From assembly GCA_024655885.1 (NCBI GenBank), contig JANLFN010000005.1, positions 75,660 to 116,006 of the forward strand: a stretch of 40,347 nt of DNA, in the 5' to 3' direction. Shown here piece by piece: positions 22,662 to 30,031 of this stretch. The DNA comes from Eubacteriales bacterium (GTDB lineage Bacteria > Bacillota > Clostridia > Acetivibrionales > JANLFN01). Each line of letters opens with the position of its first letter. Position 1 is the stretch's first letter. Made by a program: the position numbers and the translations under genes. The notes beneath the pieces were generated by a model. It was not told the DNA's origin and made no database searches. It saw only the letters and a list, made by a program, of their open reading frames with translations.

Positions 22662-22689
22662 AACCAGAGGAGCTGCGGTTCCCCTGGTT
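22662..22689. terminator. Hairpin between convergent clpE and phoR
   Basis: AACCAGAGG (22662-22670) pairs with CCCCTGGTT (22681-22689) with one mismatch, sitting between the two stop codons. It probably ends both transcripts. The T-run is weak on both sides. Confidence 0.5.
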
Positions 22690-24476
22690 TATGCCGGAAG
22701 CTGGATGATAAACTCGGTTCCTTTCCCCAGCTCGCTGCTGACCTTGATATCCCCGTTGTATAGGTTTACAATGTGCTTTACGATGGAGAGGCCCAGGCCG
22801 GTTCCTCCCATGCTCCTGGACCTGCCCTTGTCGACCCTGTAGAAGCGTTCAAAAATCCTGGGGAGATGTTCGGGGGCTATCCCTATGCCGGTGTCTTTTA
22901 CGGATATGCTCACCTTGCCTTCCCCTTTAAAAGCCTTTATGGTTACGCTGCCGTTCTCGGTATTATACTTTATGCCGTTGTCAATGAGGTTGATGAACAT
23001 CTGCTTTATGCGGTCCCTGTTTGCGTTGATTTCAATACTTCCGTCACTTTCATCAATAAGCCGGACCCCCTTTTTCTCCGCAACGCCCTCCAGGATGGAT
23101 ATGGTCTCCGCAATGATGGATTTTAAATTATAGGTCCCAATGTTGGAGTCTTTTTGCTTCGATTCAATCTCAGAGAGCTGCAGTATATCGTTAATCAGCA
23201 TATACAGCCTTTCCGCCTCAATATCTATGATTTCAAGGAATTTTTCAGACACTTCCCTGTCATGGATGGCTCCGCTCCTTAAAGTCTCTATAAAACCGCG
23301 GATGGATGTCAGCGGCGTTTTTAATTCATGGGTTACATTGGAAACGAACTCGGTTCTTATCTGCTCAAGCTTCCTTATATTGGTAATATCCTGGATTACG
23401 GCTATGCCCCCAGAATTAAGATTCGACGCGCTGTTTGACTTGATAGGGCTGGTGTAAATCCTCAGCACCCTGTTTTTCGGAGAGCTCACGGTGATTTCCT
23501 TTAAAAGGGAGGCGTTCCCCTCTACTGTTTCCTTTAGGAAGCGGTTTATCTGGTGGTTTCTCACAAGCTCCAGAATGTTGATGCCCACGGTGCCGGGGCC
23601 GTGCTTTATACCGAAGATTTCAGCTGCGATGGAATTGATGAGCAGGGTTTTGTAGCTGTTATCCACGGCGATAATTCCACTGGTCATGCTGTTTATGATG
23701 GAATCAAACTTAATATTTTTATCCGTCATTTCTGATACAATTTTTTCCAGACGAGATGCCATATTATTAAAAGAGTCGGCCAGCTGGCCCAGTTCATCCT
23801 TGGATTTTACATTCACCCTTTTAGAATAGTTGCCCAGTGAAATCTCCCGCGAAACATGGATCAATTCATTAATGGGTTTTGTAATGTCTGAGGAGAATTT
23901 CAGCGCCAGCAGTACGGTCAGCATGAACCCGGCAAGAATGCCGATTACAGTGTAGTTCCAAATTTCCTGCCCGATTTTTTGCAGCTGCATCAAAGGCATG
24001 GCCACCCTTATGATCACCCGGGCCGATTCCATGGGAAGGGCCACATAGAGATATTGTACGTTCAAGGTTTTACTGGTTCGGATGTCCTTTCCCACCTTGC
24101 CCTGTAAAGCCTCCTGGATTTCCTTGCGCGTCAGGTGGTTTTCCATGCTCTGATAGCTGGTTTCGGACTCACCCAGCACTTTTCCGTCGAAATCGATAAA
24201 TGTAACCCTTGAATACTCTTTGCCGGCAGCAGTACCGGCGGAGGAAGACTGGTTTAACACCTTTGCGTATTTTGAGGCCGCATCGTTGAAGTCCACCTTT
24301 TTGCCTTGGGACAGGTCTTCGGCGATTTGATGCTGGATCATCCTTGCGGTGTTTTCCAGCTTTTCATTGACTTCCTGCTTATAAAATTTTTGCGCCAGCT
24401 GTGAGGTAAAATAGCCGGTGATGGAAATACCTATGATCACCAACAGGATGTAGTGTAAAAAAATTTTTCTCCTCAT
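22689..24476 (-). CDS. phoR: PhoR-type sensor histidine kinase
   Basis: A 595-residue membrane kinase with transmembrane segments at about 8-26 and 174-194 flanking an extracytoplasmic sensor domain. Then come HAMP (195-247), PAS (255-365), HisKA with the phospho-accepting His383 in VTHELKTPLTS, and a HATPase domain with NLIDNGIKYN, DTGIGIAPEHL and GGTGLGLSIVK. It is last in the pstB-phoU-phoB-phoR operon and 48 bp after phoB, so it is the phosphate-starvation kinase that signals to PhoB together with PhoU and the Pst transporter. GGAGG lies 13 nt before ATG 24476, a wide spacing. Confidence 0.92.
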   Translation of the reverse strand: MRRKIFLHYILLVIIGISITGYFTSQLAQKFYKQEVNEKLENTARMIQHQIAEDLSQGKKVDFNDAASKYAKVLNQSSSAGTAAGKEYSRVTFIDFDGKVLGESETSYQSMENHLTRKEIQEALQGKVGKDIRTSKTLNVQYLYVALPMESARVIIRVAMPLMQLQKIGQEIWNYTVIGILAGFMLTVLLALKFSSDITKPINELIHVSREISLGNYSKRVNVKSKDELGQLADSFNNMASRLEKIVSEMTDKNIKFDSIINSMTSGIIAVDNSYKTLLINSIAAEIFGIKHGPGTVGINILELVRNHQINRFLKETVEGNASLLKEITVSSPKNRVLRIYTSPIKSNSASNLNSGGIAVIQDITNIRKLEQIRTEFVSNVTHELKTPLTSIRGFIETLRSGAIHDREVSEKFLEIIDIEAERLYMLINDILQLSEIESKQKDSNIGTYNLKSIIAETISILEGVAEKKGVRLIDESDGSIEINANRDRIKQMFINLIDNGIKYNTENGSVTIKAFKGEGKVSISVKDTGIGIAPEHLPRIFERFYRVDKGRSRSMGGTGLGLSIVKHIVNLYNGDIKVSSELGKGTEFIIQLPA

Positions 24477-24524: not shown

Positions 24525-25232
24525 TTATTTTGATATCTTATCGTTAAACTTGTATCCTATTCCTCTGATGGTTTCTATATATGCGGGGTTGCCGTCATCC
24601 TCCTCGATTTTTTGCCTCAGATACCTTATGTGGACATCCACAGTTCTTGTTTCTCCATAGTAATCGAAGCCCCAGATTTTTTCAAGCAGCATTTCCCTTG
24701 AAAGTACCTTGCCTTTGTTTAAAATCAGGAGCTTGAGCAGCTCAAACTCCTTCAAGGGCATTTCAATGAGTTTGTCTCCCTTGTAGACCTCACGTCTGGA
24801 GCAGTCTATGGTGATATCGTCAAATTTGATTATTTCCGATTCCACCGCTGTAGCGGTATTGACCCTCCTGAAGATGGCTTTCACCCGCGCCATTAATTCA
24901 CGGACGCTGAAGGGCTTGGTGATGTAATCGTCAGCTCCCAGCTCCAGGCCTAGCACCTTGTCGAACTCCTCGCTTTTTGCCGTCAGCATGATGATGGGGA
25001 TATTCCTGGTCCGCGCATTCTCCCGTAGCTGGCGGCAAACTTCCAGGCCATCCATTCCGGGCAGCATGATATCCAGAATAAACAGGTCGGGGATGGAGTT
25101 TTTACATTCATTTAAAAGGCTTTCGCCGCTTTCAAACGTCAAGACCCTGTAGCCGCCGGACTCAAGGTTGTATTTTATCAACTGCTGGATGTGTATCTCA
25201 TCCTCCACGGTGTAAATTAACTCTTTGGACAT
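24525..25232 (-). CDS. phoB: PhoB/PhoP-type response regulator
   Basis: A 235-residue OmpR-family regulator. The receiver domain (1-118) has the phospho-acceptor Asp54 (LFILDIMLPGMDG), an acidic pair near residues 10-11 (VEDE) and Lys in ITKPF. The winged-helix domain (about 135-230) ends with TVDVHIRYLRQKIEEDDGNP and IRGIGYKF. GGGAGGG lies 8 nt before ATG 25232. It is cotranscribed with phoU upstream and phoR downstream. Its likely targets include the TTAACA direct-repeat arrays between pstB and pstS in this window, whose 11-bp spacing is that of Bacillus PhoP boxes. In Bacillus this protein would be called phoP. Confidence 0.93.
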   Translation of the reverse strand: MSKELIYTVEDEIHIQQLIKYNLESGGYRVLTFESGESLLNECKNSIPDLFILDIMLPGMDGLEVCRQLRENARTRNIPIIMLTAKSEEFDKVLGLELGADDYITKPFSVRELMARVKAIFRRVNTATAVESEIIKFDDITIDCSRREVYKGDKLIEMPLKEFELLKLLILNKGKVLSREMLLEKIWGFDYYGETRTVDVHIRYLRQKIEEDDGNPAYIETIRGIGYKFNDKISK

Positions 25233-25326: not shown

Positions 25327-26040
25327 CTATTTCTTATTGTCGTCCACAAAGGGATTGTTCACCCTGTCATCTTTGTACACATGCCTGGCAAGGTGGTCGT
25401 GTTCGCCCGTAACATTGTAAACAACCCACTCGCAGATATTGGTGGCATGGTCCCCCATTCTTTCAAGATATTTTGCGATAAACATGAAATTAATGACCTG
25501 TTCGGTAGCCTGGGGGTCGTTTTTTACTATATTGATCAGCTCAAGCACGATTTTTGAAAACAAGTCGTCCACGGCGTCGTCGCTGTCGCAGACCTCCCGG
25601 GCAAGAGCGATATCCTGCTTTACATAGGCGTCAATAGACTTTTTCACCATTTGCTTTGCCAATTCCGCCATCCTGGGTATGTCGATGAGGGGCTTTATAT
25701 ATTTCTCATTGGCCATTCCGATGGTAATTTCCGCGATATCCGCCGAATGGTCCGCGATCCGCTCCATATCGGTAATAATTTTCAGGGCGGTGCTGATGGT
25801 CCTTAAATCCTTGGCGAGAGGCTGCTGTCTGGCGATAAGGTTCAAACACTTTTTTTCTATTCTCTTTTCCATTTCATCAATAATATCTTCATTGCGGAAG
25901 ATATCCCTGGCCAGCTCCACATCCTGGTTTTTCAGCGCAGCAATGGTGTTGTCGATGGATTCTTCAACCATGCTTCCCATTTTTATAAGCTCAAAATGCA
26001 GGTCTTCAAGCTCTTTATCAAAATAATGCCTTGTAACCAT
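25327..26040 (-). CDS. phoU: Phosphate signalling protein PhoU
   Basis: A 237-residue all-helical protein made of two PhoU repeats. Each has the metal-contacting pattern: ALKIITDMERIADHSADIAE in the first and FIAKYLERMGDHATNICEW in the second. It links the Pst transporter to the PhoR kinase and damps phosphate-starvation signalling when phosphate is plentiful. I take ATG 26040 because GGAG lies 8 nt upstream. An in-frame GTG at 26049 overlaps that site. It sits between pstB (135 bp upstream, with an inverted repeat between) and phoB. Confidence 0.95.
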   Translation of the reverse strand: MVTRHYFDKELEDLHFELIKMGSMVEESIDNTIAALKNQDVELARDIFRNEDIIDEMEKRIEKKCLNLIARQQPLAKDLRTISTALKIITDMERIADHSADIAEITIGMANEKYIKPLIDIPRMAELAKQMVKKSIDAYVKQDIALAREVCDSDDAVDDLFSKIVLELINIVKNDPQATEQVINFMFIAKYLERMGDHATNICEWVVYNVTGEHDHLARHVYKDDRVNNPFVDDNKK

Positions 26041-26086
26041 AGATTTCACTCCGTATCTTATAAGTTTTTATGGTTTAGAGTTTATT

Positions 26087-26175: not shown

Positions 26176-26937
26176 TTACCCAAATCTTCCCGTGATATAA
26201 TCCTCGGTCCTCTTGTCGGACGGTTTGCTGAATATGGTTTCGGTCAGGCCATATTCAACAACTTCGCCGTGCAGGAAGAAGGCGGTCATATCGGATATAC
26301 GCCCGGCCTGCTGCATGTTGTGCGTAACGATGATGATGGTGTAGTTTTTCTTAAGGTCATCAATCAGGTCCTCTATCTTCAGTGTGGATATGGGGTCCAG
26401 GGCAGAGGTGGGCTCATCCATGAGAACAACCTCGGGTTCCACGGCCAGAACCCTTGCGATGCACAGCCTCTGCTGCTGCCCGCCGGACAACCCCAAGGCG
26501 CTCTGCTTCAGGCGGCCTTTTACTTCATCCCACAGGGCGGCATTTTCCAGGCTTTTTTGCACCAGTTCGTCCAGCCTGGATTTGGATTTTATCCCATGAA
26601 TCCGCGGGCCATAGGCGATATTGTCATACACCGACATGGGAAAGGGGTTGGGCTTTTGAAAAACCATCCCTATTCGTTTTCTTAAATCCACTATATCATA
26701 CTGCTCATACACATTCAAATTGTCGAAATAGACTCCACCGGTTATTTTAACATTGGGTATCAAATCATTCATCCGGTTTAAGGTCTTGAGGAATGTGGAT
26801 TTACCGCAGCCTGAGGGGCCGATCAAAGCAGTGACCTTTTTCTCCCCGATGCTGATGGAGATGTTCTTTAGAGCATGCAGCTCCCCGTAGTACAAGTTTA
26901 AATCCGATGTATAGATTTTTTTCTCATTATTATCCAT
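26176..26937 (-). CDS. pstB: Phosphate ABC transporter ATP-binding protein
   Basis: The 253-residue ATPase of the high-affinity phosphate importer. Walker A is GPSGCGKST, the signature is [16 protein letters not shown], Walker B is [13 protein letters not shown] and the switch His is in [10 protein letters not shown] take ATG 26937 (MDNNEKK) because GAGG lies 10 nt upstream. The frame opens 19 codons earlier without a binding site. pstB is usually downstream of pstSCA. Here it is transcribed divergently from pstS, as the first gene of pstB-phoU-phoB-phoR. Its upstream region carries a PhoP-box array on the minus strand. Confidence 0.96.
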
Positions 26938-26998
26938 ATCTGCCTGACCTCTAATTATTGTCTTTTTATTAAAATTGCTATGACTAATGTACAAGAGA

Positions 26999-27054
26999 AT
27001 ATTAACAACCCCATATTAATACCGGGTTAATAAAATGTTAACTTGCGGTTAACA
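26999..27054 (-). promoter_or_regulatory. PhoP-box array and -10 for the pstB operon (array A)
   Basis: On the minus strand four direct repeats occur at exactly 11-bp spacing: TTAACC (27052-27047), TTAACA (27041-27036), TTAACC (27030-27025) and TTAATA (27019-27014). Nine bases later comes TAATAT (27004-26999), a -10-like hexamer with no -35. Because TTAAC is close to palindromic, the array also reads as repeats on the plus strand (27016, 27027, 27038, 27049). The layout equals that of array B in front of pstS. Confidence 0.75.
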
Positions 27055-27073
27055 TTTTCAGCGGTCCTCAGAG

Positions 27074-27127
27074 TTAACAACAAATTAACATGTCATTAAT
27101 CAGCAATTAAATTTGTATCTGTACTAT
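27074..27127 (+). promoter_or_regulatory. PhoP-box array and -10 for the pstSCA operon (array B)
   Basis: Four direct repeats at 11-bp spacing: TTAACA (27074), TTAACA (27085), TTAATC (27096) and TTAAAT (27107-27112), then 9 bp and TACTAT (27122-27127) as -10. No -35 hexamer is present, as expected for an activator-dependent promoter. Repeats of TT(A/T/C)ACA-like hexamers every 11 bp are the known PhoP binding pattern in Bacillus. Confidence 0.8.
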
Positions 27128-27172
27128 TTTGTCAGTGTTAAAATTATATTTTCATTAGGAGGGTCATTAAAA

Positions 27173-28114
27173 ATGAAAAAATTAGGAAGGGTAAGGTCTA
27201 TTGCCGTTGTAACGGCGTTAATCTTTACGATGGCTACAATATTGGCTGCCTGTGGAGGAACGAATGGGAACAATGCGCCGTCACAGCAAACCAATTCGAC
27301 AGCGGCACAGGGGACGACAAAGCCAGACAATACCAGCACCAGTGGGGTCTCAGGATCGGCAATGGCCGTGGGGTCATCCGCACTTCAGCCGTTAGCTGAA
27401 AAAGCGGCACAGATGTTTATGGAGAAAAACAAGGATGCCAGGATACAGGTACAGGGCGGCGGAAGCGGAACCGGTCTGACCCAGGTATCGTCCGGTGGAG
27501 CGGATATCGGAAATTCGGACCTGTTTGCGGAGGAAAAACTGCCTGCAGACCAGGCTAAGCTGTTAGTGGACCATAAGGTTTGCGTGGTGGGTTTTGCTAC
27601 GGTTGTAAATCCCAAAGTAAAAGTGGACAATCTTACAAAGAAACAGTTAATAGATATTTTTACCGGCAAAATAACAAACTGGAAGGATGTGGGTGGGGAT
27701 GACATGAAAATTGTCATAATCAACAGGCCCAGTTCGTCGGGTACAAGGGCGACATTTAAGAAATACGCCCTGGATGGAGCGGAAGAGGCCCAGGGAAAGG
27801 CGCTGACCGAGGACCAGTCCGGCACCGTAAGAAAAGCAGTGGCAGAGACGGAAGGGGCCATTTCTTACCTTGCGTTCTCCTATATCGACAGCACTGTAAA
27901 ACCACTTAAATATGAAAACATCGAGCCTACGGCAGATAATGTCAAGAGCGGCCAATATCCCCTCTGGTCCTATGAGCATATGTATACTAAAGGGGAAGCC
28001 CAGGGTGTCGTAAAAGCTTTCCTGGATTTCATCATGAGCGATGAATTCAAGACCACAATTACAGAATTAGGCTATATACCCAATTCGGAGATGAAAGTAT
28101 CAAGAGATAAATAA
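27173..28114 (+). CDS. pstS: Phosphate-binding lipoprotein PstS
   Basis: A 313-residue extracellular phosphate receptor. A lipoprotein signal peptide ends in the lipobox LAAC (ATILAACGG), followed by a low-complexity Asn/Thr/Ser/Gln linker. The mature part has phosphate-pocket segments GSSALQPLAEKAA, GGGSGTGLTQV, GNSDLFAEE and RPSSSGTRATF. I take ATG 27173, 8 nt after AGGAGGG. The frame opens 20 codons earlier with no binding site. It leads pstS-pstC-pstA and lies directly behind PhoP-box array B. A hairpin after its stop probably lowers expression of pstCA relative to pstS. Confidence 0.96.
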   Translation: MKKLGRVRSIAVVTALIFTMATILAACGGTNGNNAPSQQTNSTAAQGTTKPDNTSTSGVSGSAMAVGSSALQPLAEKAAQMFMEKNKDARIQVQGGGSGTGLTQVSSGGADIGNSDLFAEEKLPADQAKLLVDHKVCVVGFATVVNPKVKVDNLTKKQLIDIFTGKITNWKDVGGDDMKIVIINRPSSSGTRATFKKYALDGAEEAQGKALTEDQSGTVRKAVAETEGAISYLAFSYIDSTVKPLKYENIEPTADNVKSGQYPLWSYEHMYTKGEAQGVVKAFLDFIMSDEFKTTITELGYIPNSEMKVSRDK

Positions 28115-28217: not shown

Positions 28218-29138
28218 ATGCTGAGAGGGCAAAATAAAAAAATGAGCTTTAATTCCATTAAAAATGAATTTGCCGGCAGATCAATGGTTACTTTTTTTGG
28301 TGCGTTTTTAATCCTATTAACCCTTTGCCTTGTGTTTTTTATTGCGTCCAAAGGACTGGCCACATTTTACCATAGCCACCTGTCTCCCTTGGAATTTTTG
28401 TTTAGCACCCAGTGGAAGCCGGACAGGGAAATAGGGGAGGGGGGGCCCGCCGTCGGGGCGGCCGTATTTATCATCGGGTCGGTTCTTGTATCGTCCGTGG
28501 CCCTTTTGATAAGCACTCCCTTTAGTGTGGCGCTGGCAATCTTTATGACCGAAATTTCTCCCGGGCTGGGGAGAAAACTTTTACAGCCCACCATTGAGGT
28601 GTTCGTCGGGATTCCCTCGGTAGTATACGGCTGGATAGGACTGAGCGTGCTGGTGCCTTTTATAAGGCAGAGCTTTGGAGGCCTGGGGTTCAGCTGGATT
28701 GCCGGTTCCTTGGTCCTGTCCATTATGATTCTCCCGACCATTGCCAGTGTATCCGCCGATGCCTTAAGGGCCATTCCCGGCGACTACAGGGAGGCTTCCT
28801 ATGCTTTGGGAGCCACACGCTGGCAGACCATAAGAAGGGTGGTATTGCCTGCCGCTGCGCCCGGAGTATTGACAGGGGTCGTGCTTGGACTTGCCCGTGC
28901 CTTCGGCGAAGCCCTTGCCGTTCAAATGGTTTTGGGAAACACCCTCCGCATTCCCCGTTCCCTTTTTGATTCCACGGTCAATATGACCAGCATAATTACT
29001 ATGGATATGGGAAATACGGTTATGGGAACGGCGTGGAACAATGCGCTGTGGTCAATGGCCCTTCTGCTGCTGATCCTGTCCTTCATTTTTATTCTGGCCA
29101 TTCATAAAATCGGGAAAAGGAGGAGCTCGGTAAAATGA
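28218..29138 (+). CDS. pstC: Phosphate ABC transporter permease PstC
   Basis: A 306-residue inner-membrane permease with about six hydrophobic segments: an N-terminal one at about 24-45, then the BPD-transporter core. The EAA loop that contacts PstB is EASYALGATRWQTIRRVVLPAAAPG. AGGGG lies upstream of ATG 28218. It overlaps pstA by 4 bp (ATGA), so the two permeases are translationally coupled. It belongs to the PhoP-box controlled pstSCA operon. Confidence 0.95.
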   Translation: MLRGQNKKMSFNSIKNEFAGRSMVTFFGAFLILLTLCLVFFIASKGLATFYHSHLSPLEFLFSTQWKPDREIGEGGPAVGAAVFIIGSVLVSSVALLISTPFSVALAIFMTEISPGLGRKLLQPTIEVFVGIPSVVYGWIGLSVLVPFIRQSFGGLGFSWIAGSLVLSIMILPTIASVSADALRAIPGDYREASYALGATRWQTIRRVVLPAAAPGVLTGVVLGLARAFGEALAVQMVLGNTLRIPRSLFDSTVNMTSIITMDMGNTVMGTAWNNALWSMALLLLILSFIFILAIHKIGKRRSSVK

Positions 29139-30031
29139 AGATAAAATCCAGGACAACGGATAAAGCCGCAACAGCATTTTTTTACATGGTGGCAGGCGCC
29201 TTTGTTTTCCTGCTGCTGCTGTTTGTGGGCTACATCCTCTATCACGGCAGAGAAAGGCTGAATTTACATTTTATTTTCTCGGCCCCTACCTTCATGAAGC
29301 CCGGCGGGGGAATCGGGCCTCAACTGTTTAATTCCCTCTATCTTGTGGTTCTATCCATGCTGATTACCGTCCCCATAGGACTGTCGGCGGGCATCTATAT
29401 GGCGGAATACGCGAAGCCCAGCCCCTTGACCAGAGGAATCCGGTTTTGCATTGAAACCCTTGCCTCCCTTCCTTCCATAGTCATCGGTTTATTCGGGCTG
29501 CTGGTATTCGTCAATGCCACAGGATGGGGATATACCCTTATGTCGGGCGCCCTGGCCGTAGCTGTGTTGAACCTGCCTGTCATAACCACAATCAGCGAAG
29601 ACGCCATCAGAAATGTGCCTTCATCCATCAAGGAAGCCAGCCTGGCCCTTGGAGCCACCCATTGGCAGACCATATGCCGGGTTATTATTCCTTCGGCGCT
29701 GCCCGCTTTGATCACAGGACTCATCATGACCGCGGGGAGGGTATTCGGCGAGGCTGCCGCCCTGCTGTATACAGCGGGTATGAGCAGCCCTGCCCTGGAC
29801 TTCAGCGATTTAAATCCTTTCAGCTACAAGTCGCCTTTAAACCCGTTCAGGCCGGCGGAGACACTGGCGGTTTACATTTGGAAAGTGAATTCGGAAGGGA
29901 TTGCTCCGGATTCAAGGCAGATTGCGGACGGTGCATCGGCTATCCTCATAATAGCCGTATTTATTTTTAATATTGTTTCAAGATTTCTCGGCAGATATTT
30001 AAACACTAAATTTTCCGGAACCACGAAATGA
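29135..30031 (+). CDS. pstA: Phosphate ABC transporter permease PstA
   Basis: A 298-residue permease, the partner of PstC. It has multiple membrane segments and the EAA loop KEASLALGATHWQTICRVIIPSALPA. The start ATG overlaps the pstC stop (ATGA). This is the last gene of pstSCA. The spacer after it (30032-30254) shows no clear terminator. With PstB encoded divergently, all four Pst subunits are present in the window. Confidence 0.95.
   Translation: MKIKSRTTDKAATAFFYMVAGAFVFLLLLFVGYILYHGRERLNLHFIFSAPTFMKPGGGIGPQLFNSLYLVVLSMLITVPIGLSAGIYMAEYAKPSPLTRGIRFCIETLASLPSIVIGLFGLLVFVNATGWGYTLMSGALAVAVLNLPVITTISEDAIRNVPSSIKEASLALGATHWQTICRVIIPSALPALITGLIMTAGRVFGEAAALLYTAGMSSPALDFSDLNPFSYKSPLNPFRPAETLAVYIWKVNSEGIAPDSRQIADGASAILIIAVFIFNIVSRFLGRYLNTKFSGTTK

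Follow-up and report, generated by a model that had tools for sequence, protein, structure and literature searches.

Phosphate-starvation (Pho) promoters that are activated by PhoP in Bacillus subtilis carry TT(A/T/C)ACA repeats, the PhoP core binding region, and the PHO boxes of Escherichia coli and Streptomyces stand in place of the -35 element. Here, we analyse the spacer between two divergent operons of phosphate genes in a 40,347-nt stretch of DNA from an Eubacteriales bacterium (the window). The arrays of boxes, their spacing, orientation and conservation, and the gene content are read directly, and together they indicate that the spacer very probably consists of two independent, back-to-back Pho promoters, each predicted to be activated by phosphorylated PhoB (PhoB-P). 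These promoters share with the PhoP promoters of B. subtilis the hexamer consensus, the 11-bp step and about four coding-strand boxes over the -35 region, as well as a regulator of the same family and a pst target. Unlike in B. subtilis, the window has a back-to-back pair of such promoters, and pstB-phoU-phoB-phoR is set apart from pstSCA. A review (PMC4415409) describes the PHO boxes of E. coli and Streptomyces as pairs of 11-nt direct repeats to which PhoB and PhoP, respectively, bind head to tail. The window shares the 11-nt direct repeats with them, whereas the repeat motifs given there, CTGTCAT for E. coli and GTTCACC for Streptomyces, differ from the four TTAACA-like units seen here, and no CTGTCAT-type unit was found in the window arrays. 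Two features of Firmicutes PhoP/PhoB-type promoters are present: TTAACA-like hexamers repeated in tandem every 11 bp on the gene's own strand, and a fixed distance from array to -10 (9 bp on both sides) without a consensus -35. Because each of the two opposed promoters has a four-site array typical of the phosphate-starvation promoters of its relatives, the region appears to be a clear-cut case of a known switch, not a new device.

Anatomy of the pstB–pstS spacer

A spacer of 235 bp separates the divergent genes pstB, which begins with an ATG at 26937 on the minus strand, and pstS, whose ATG is at 27173 on the plus strand. We used the inner ATG of pstB; an alternative open reading frame with a TTG start, extending to 26994, would reach the promoter. 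Array A lies on the minus strand, oriented to pstB-phoU-phoB-phoR, and comprises four TTAA-type hexamers at exact 11-bp steps: box 1 (TTAACC, 27047–27052), distal from the -10, box 2 (TTAACA, 27036–27041), box 3 (TTAACC, 27025–27030) and box 4 (TTAATA, 27014–27019), all in a register that recurs in relatives. Its -10 hexamer, TAATAT (26999–27004), follows box 4 after 9 bp and is preceded by the extended -10 element TGT (27005–27007), read in the sequence and supported by a comparison of TGn elements. Array B, on the plus strand and oriented to pstS-pstC-pstA, repeats the arrangement, again with exact 11-bp steps, in box 1 (TTAACA, 27074–27079), box 2 (TTAACA, 27085–27090), box 3 (TTAATC, 27096–27101) and box 4 (TTAAAT, 27107–27112), assigned from the sequence and from a comparison of divergent spacers. 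Exactly 9 bp further on lies the -10 hexamer TACTAT (27122–27127), without a TGn element, and the ribosome-binding site of pstS, AGGAGGG, is at 27157–27163. Both -10 hexamers thus have the form TAnnAT, and the two arrays are back to back, 21 bp apart. Transcripts would be expected to start near 26992 for pstB and near 27134 for pstS.

This anatomy agrees base for base with the preliminary description of the region, which had reported four hexamers, the 11-bp step, the 9-bp distance and the orientation of each array. That description had also remarked that array A reads as repeats on both strands, and the boxes are indeed legible on both because TTAA is its own complement. The reversed reading itself does not stand: array A was rejected as an upstream array of pstS, as a TAnnnT at 9 bp towards pstS/pstC occurs in just 1 of 15 divergent spacers, and in the window the bases at that distance, reading away from pstB, are GTCCTC. 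A perfect 11-bp inverted repeat (arms 27032–27042 and 27048–27058) was likewise rejected as an operator; it arises because two GTTAAC boxes adjoin, and its outer bases are lost in one relative (L148, by eye).

A common layout of Firmicutes pst promoters

To place this layout among related promoters, we sampled up to 450 bases upstream of the first genes of pst clusters, drawn from the window, from 80 loci found by PstS similarity and from 36 stretches of 31 genomes of the same order. Excluding regions shorter than 250 bases left 139 usable regions, and removing exact duplicates left 130 distinct ones, among which near-duplicates such as L002 and L178 remain. Arrays were scored as four hexamers against TTAACA, with a maximum of 24 and a threshold of at least 18. 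At the 11-bp step, 86 of the 139 regions reached the threshold, compared with 0, 0, 3, 0, 1 and 3 at control steps of 8, 9, 10, 12, 13 and 14 bp, respectively, and 0.6% of 1,390 shuffled regions. Among the distinct regions an array was present in 78 of 130, and in 40 of these 78 a TAnnAT stood exactly 9 bp from it; the runner-up distance was 21 bp (8/78) and the background 1.0% per position. The excess at 9 bp corresponds to a binomial p of 4e-58, a value that treats related promoters as independent.

The counts include three regions in which the automatic best array is read the wrong way round and which weigh against the 9-bp rule: the pstS region of the window, where array A reversed (21/24) was chosen over array B (20), and the pstC regions of L147 and L163. 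No array reached 18/24 in 52 of the 130 distinct regions. These include the pstS regions of L008 and L009, which are loci from metagenome-assembled genomes (MAGs) labelled as proteobacteria, and of L019, and many loci of Enterococcus, Clostridium and others, which mostly score 16–17.

An 11-bp step with a 9-bp gap is thus the usual arrangement at pst promoters of Firmicutes, and the agreement between arrays A and B needs no further cause. As a rule (four boxes, an 11-bp step, 9 bp to the -10) the layout is precise and testable, and can be used to find Pho promoters, with their start sites, in Clostridia that have been little studied. Of 54 promoters with a TAnnnT at 9 bp, 20 also carry a TGYAR element (for example, TGTAAG) that begins 5 or 6 bases past the -10 hexamer, close to where transcription is expected to start; the background is 0.5% per position. 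Eighteen of these are pstS promoters (those of L033, L041, L042, L052, L061, L064, L172 and others) and two are pstB promoters; the pstS promoter of the window has no TGYAR after its -10.

Arrays A and B in relatives

An array is present in 16 of 19 distinct pstB regions, and all 16 have a TAnnnT at exactly 9 bp. Array A with this distance also recurs in 15 of 15 divergent spacers compared, although these distances are partly selected because the picks were restricted to a TAnnnT at 9 bp (both sides) or at 20–22 bp (pstS/pstC side); the unselected best arrays give the same 9 bp for pstB. The spacers are non-independent: several belong to genomes that are nearly identical, and array A is for the most part a single orthologous promoter. 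The same array precedes pstB where it is not divergent, in G001 (L161), with pstC-pstA and then a methyl-accepting chemotaxis protein (MCP)-type gene upstream in the same direction, and in G016 (L180), with pstS-pstC-pstA and then an MCP-type gene. By these comparisons array A is the pstB promoter conserved in this order, shared, together with its extended -10, by the pstB promoters of Ruminiclostridium and other families.

A promoter similar to array B precedes the stand-alone pstSCA of R. cellobioparum (L002); it reads TTAACT, TTTACA, TTAATT and TTAATC, followed after 9 bp by TAGAAT. PstS, PstC and PstA of that locus are 74, 76 and 81% identical to those of the window. Judged by this likeness, array B is the usual pstS promoter layout. 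The simplest history would be that two promoters already carrying arrays came to stand back to back.

Two side observations concern gene order in these relatives. An MCP-type gene follows pstA in three of them (L161:3126-4859, L003:3336-5093 and L002:9505-11235), preceding pstB in the first two and a phoB-like gene in the third; Pfam finds HAMP and MCPsignal domains in the L161 and L003 genes, the L002 gene was assigned by eye, and a literature search for an MCP-type gene next to pst returned no paper. In G001, the other genome compared from the family, pstS (L161/L179) is separate from pstC-pstA-pstB-phoU. At one end of the pstS contig lies phoR, and the second contig breaks off after phoU, so that the break may hide the true distance to pstS.

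Divergent relatives and the question of symmetry

Among the 31 relatives of the order examined, 13 have pstB-phoU-phoB-phoR divergent from pstC-pstA(-pstS): 10 of 11 genomes of genus g7, which includes Ruminiclostridium, together with G033, G034 and G042. Their partner operon belongs to another pst type with its -10 at 21–22 bp, whereas in the window the partner is a pstSCA of the kind found on its own in R. cellobioparum. In all 13, the opposing pstC promoter pairs an array of 18–21/24 with a TAnnnT 21 or 22 bp away, picked within 20–22 or 9 bp, and among 12 pstC arrays a TAnnnT at 9 bp occurs only in the non-divergent G001 (L161). These pstC promoters (L147–L157, L159 and L163) show a second promoter geometry, with strong boxes, a weaker last box and a -10 that lies about one helical turn beyond the usual distance.

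The similarity of the two window promoters raises the alternative of a symmetric, coupled bidirectional switch, in which PhoB on both arrays would assemble into a single nucleoprotein complex and link the operons through its fixed geometry. The arrays do agree in number, step and -10 distance, and the gap between them is only 21 bp in the window and 11 bp in G042. However, the gaps in the 13 divergent relatives are 11, 91, 93, 93, 93, 94, 94, 134, 142, 143, 143, 252 and 483 bp, with no fixed inter-array distance, the opposing -10 stands at 21–22 bp, and either type of array is also found alone before a non-divergent pstB or pstS. We consider a coupled switch of this kind distinctly unlikely. 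Because the gap varies and the opposing pstC -10 lies elsewhere, neither symmetry nor tight coupling is conserved, and the two promoters therefore seem to be separate units.

The symmetry that had appeared striking in the preliminary description thus dissolves into the usual 11-bp/9-bp layout, a gap that is not conserved, pstC promoters of another geometry and -10 elements of different types; as read from these comparisons, a special symmetric design is not supported. The comparison of the spacer in relatives that it had called for gave a divided answer, with array A kept in every spacer compared and the inter-array distance free to change. What the locus does show is that pst and pho genes can split into divergent operons, each retaining an array.

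An independent divergent pstB/pstS pair, found by PstS similarity, is present in L019 (MAG-73, Bacillota). Its pstB side has four boxes and TACCCT at 9 bp; its pstS side has four weaker boxes (17/24, below threshold) and TATAAA at 9 bp by eye, and the inter-array gap is about 51 bp, also by eye. Unlike the window, L019 is G+C-rich, lacks the extended -10 and carries phoB-phoR on the other strand, convergent with pstB.

Flanking genes and the identity of the regulator

On the minus strand, pstB (26176–26937) scores 413.1 bits against TIGR00972 (cut-off 343.2) and phoU (25327–26049) 234.8 bits against TIGR02135 (cut-off 130.25). The sensor kinase gene (22689–24476) is of the phoR type, passing NF046044 PnpS (420.3 against 400); its WalK score of 429.8 is below the cut-off of 725. 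On the plus strand, pstS (27173–28114), pstC (28218–29138) and pstA (29135–30031) reach 270.7, 289 and 271.1 bits against TIGR02136, TIGR02138 and TIGR00974, with cut-offs of 206.6, 196.45 and 193.45, respectively. Downstream of pstA lies an Amidase_6 gene, followed on the other strand by a CheW gene. The sets pstB-phoU-phoB-phoR and pstS-pstC-pstA would each form one transcript. A scan of the window for terminator-like sites gave 17, with 10.1 expected, and for the pstB side the only one on the coding strand falls within phoB (24743–24729), not in an intergenic region. Only one PstB in the genome is above the model cut-off of 343.2, with the next two at 251.8 and 241.4 bits. The ATPase for PstSCA thus probably has to come from the opposite operon, and a complete transporter would then probably need joint activation of both operons.

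The response regulator gene (24525–25232, minus strand) has TIGR02154 PhoB as its best model at 255.6 bits, below the cut-off of 296.2, and we therefore named it phoB-type from its gene neighbourhood. The PhoB and WalR (YycF) models are nearly equal on it (255.6 and 251.4 bits), and matches to solved chains place its DNA-binding domain nearer to RegX3 (7.8e-26) and WalR/YycF (from 1.6e-22) than to E. coli PhoB (1gxp, 1.5e-19). The WalR site is TGTWAH-n5-TGTWAH, and WalR becomes a rival binder because this site is TTAACA-n5-TTAACA strand-swapped. The TTAACA boxes of the window, strand-swapped, fit that consensus. On the other hand, a different regulator in the genome (C7:50731) passes the WalR model, barely (340.8 against 340, where the phoB-type regulator has 250.6), and in many genomes the arrays are found at pst genes, with the TTAACA sense towards the gene and the boxes covering the -35 region. 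Binding by another OmpR-family regulator, above all WalR, accordingly strikes us as very improbable.

Uniqueness of the arrays in the genome

Four TTAA units separated by seven bases occur exactly twice in the window, compared with an average of 0.00 over 100 dinucleotide-shuffled sequences, and arrays A and B are the only exact matches in the 3.44-Mb genome (65 contigs). Allowing one mismatch adds two further places, where a reversed control pattern gives one. With three mismatches the pattern has 17 matches and the reversed control 7, which is near noise; we therefore used only places with at most two mismatches, namely arrays A and B and one array at a DUF47-pit operon, and rejected the three-mismatch matches as a sign of a large Pho regulon.

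A scan for the sigma-70 consensus finds no -35 at the position expected for the 9-bp -10 hexamers on either side, and the statement in the preliminary description that a -35 is missing holds for that position. That the boxes are plain sigma-70 promoters (TTAACA-17-TAATAT and TTAACA-17-TAAATT) within chance AT-rich repeats is scarcely credible, as both pairs do turn up in the scan, made by the boxes themselves, but at the frequency of chance (2 against 2.1 expected from shuffling), whereas the four-fold 11-bp array is far above it.

Proposed mechanism and the extended -10 asymmetry

From this anatomy and from what is known of PhoB-family regulators we infer PhoB to be the binder and activator of both arrays. 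In low phosphate, the PhoR kinase would phosphorylate PhoB, and PhoB-P would occupy the four hexamers head to tail, one per 11-bp turn, on a single face of the DNA. Stopping 9 bp short of the -10, it would substitute for the -35 with the housekeeping RNA polymerase. Array A would then drive pstB-phoU-phoB-phoR, including a positive feedback on phoB-phoR, and array B would drive pstS-pstC-pstA. Co-activation of the divergent operons by PhoB, as originally suggested for this locus, is a prediction and the best reading of the uniqueness of the arrays in the genome, the recurrence of array A in 15 of 15 spacers and the same layout at many pst promoters; only its description as symmetric, in the sense of a special feature, has been dropped.

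One asymmetry had been overlooked: only the -10 on the array A side is extended (TGT, 27007–27005). Among promoters with a TAnnnT at 9 bp, TGn is found in 15 of 16 pstB but 4 of 37 pstS promoters, and both window promoters conform. Since the pstB promoters are mostly orthologues of a single promoter, spread over six families of one order, with L019 as the sole case lacking TGn, the bias reflects conservation within a lineage, not repeated origin. It is plausible that the extended -10 allows basal transcription of phoU, phoB and phoR before induction, with pstS depending more strictly on PhoB. We tentatively propose, as a conjecture with somewhat less in its favour than against it, that the divergent Pho region is built asymmetrically, with an extended -10 on the sensor and regulator side keeping PhoU, PhoB and PhoR always at a basal level and a plain -10 for a tightly switched pstSCA, alongside a second Pho geometry used in the order, with the -10 at 21–22 bp. 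That regulator and transporter promoters differ in their type of -10 offers a small, testable idea about the basal sensor level in such feedback loops.

Arrays away from the pst genes

A second TTAA array with one mismatch (TTAAAT, TTAACA, TTAACA and TCAACA) lies away from the pst genes at G000:C32:64616-64654 (L085). The array at the DUF47-pit operon, at G000:C9:81619-81657 (L084, L228), has four TTAACA-like boxes at 11-bp steps upstream of the operon, on the opposite strand. It recurs in L224, L225, L226 and L227, so that five genomes in three families (f1, f6 and f12) of the order have it, and in all five, by eye, it sits beside TATAATCA on the strand of the gene. It may serve in activation, in repression or as a WalR site. 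In Streptomyces, pitH2 is reported to carry four PhoP repeat units (PMC7866108).
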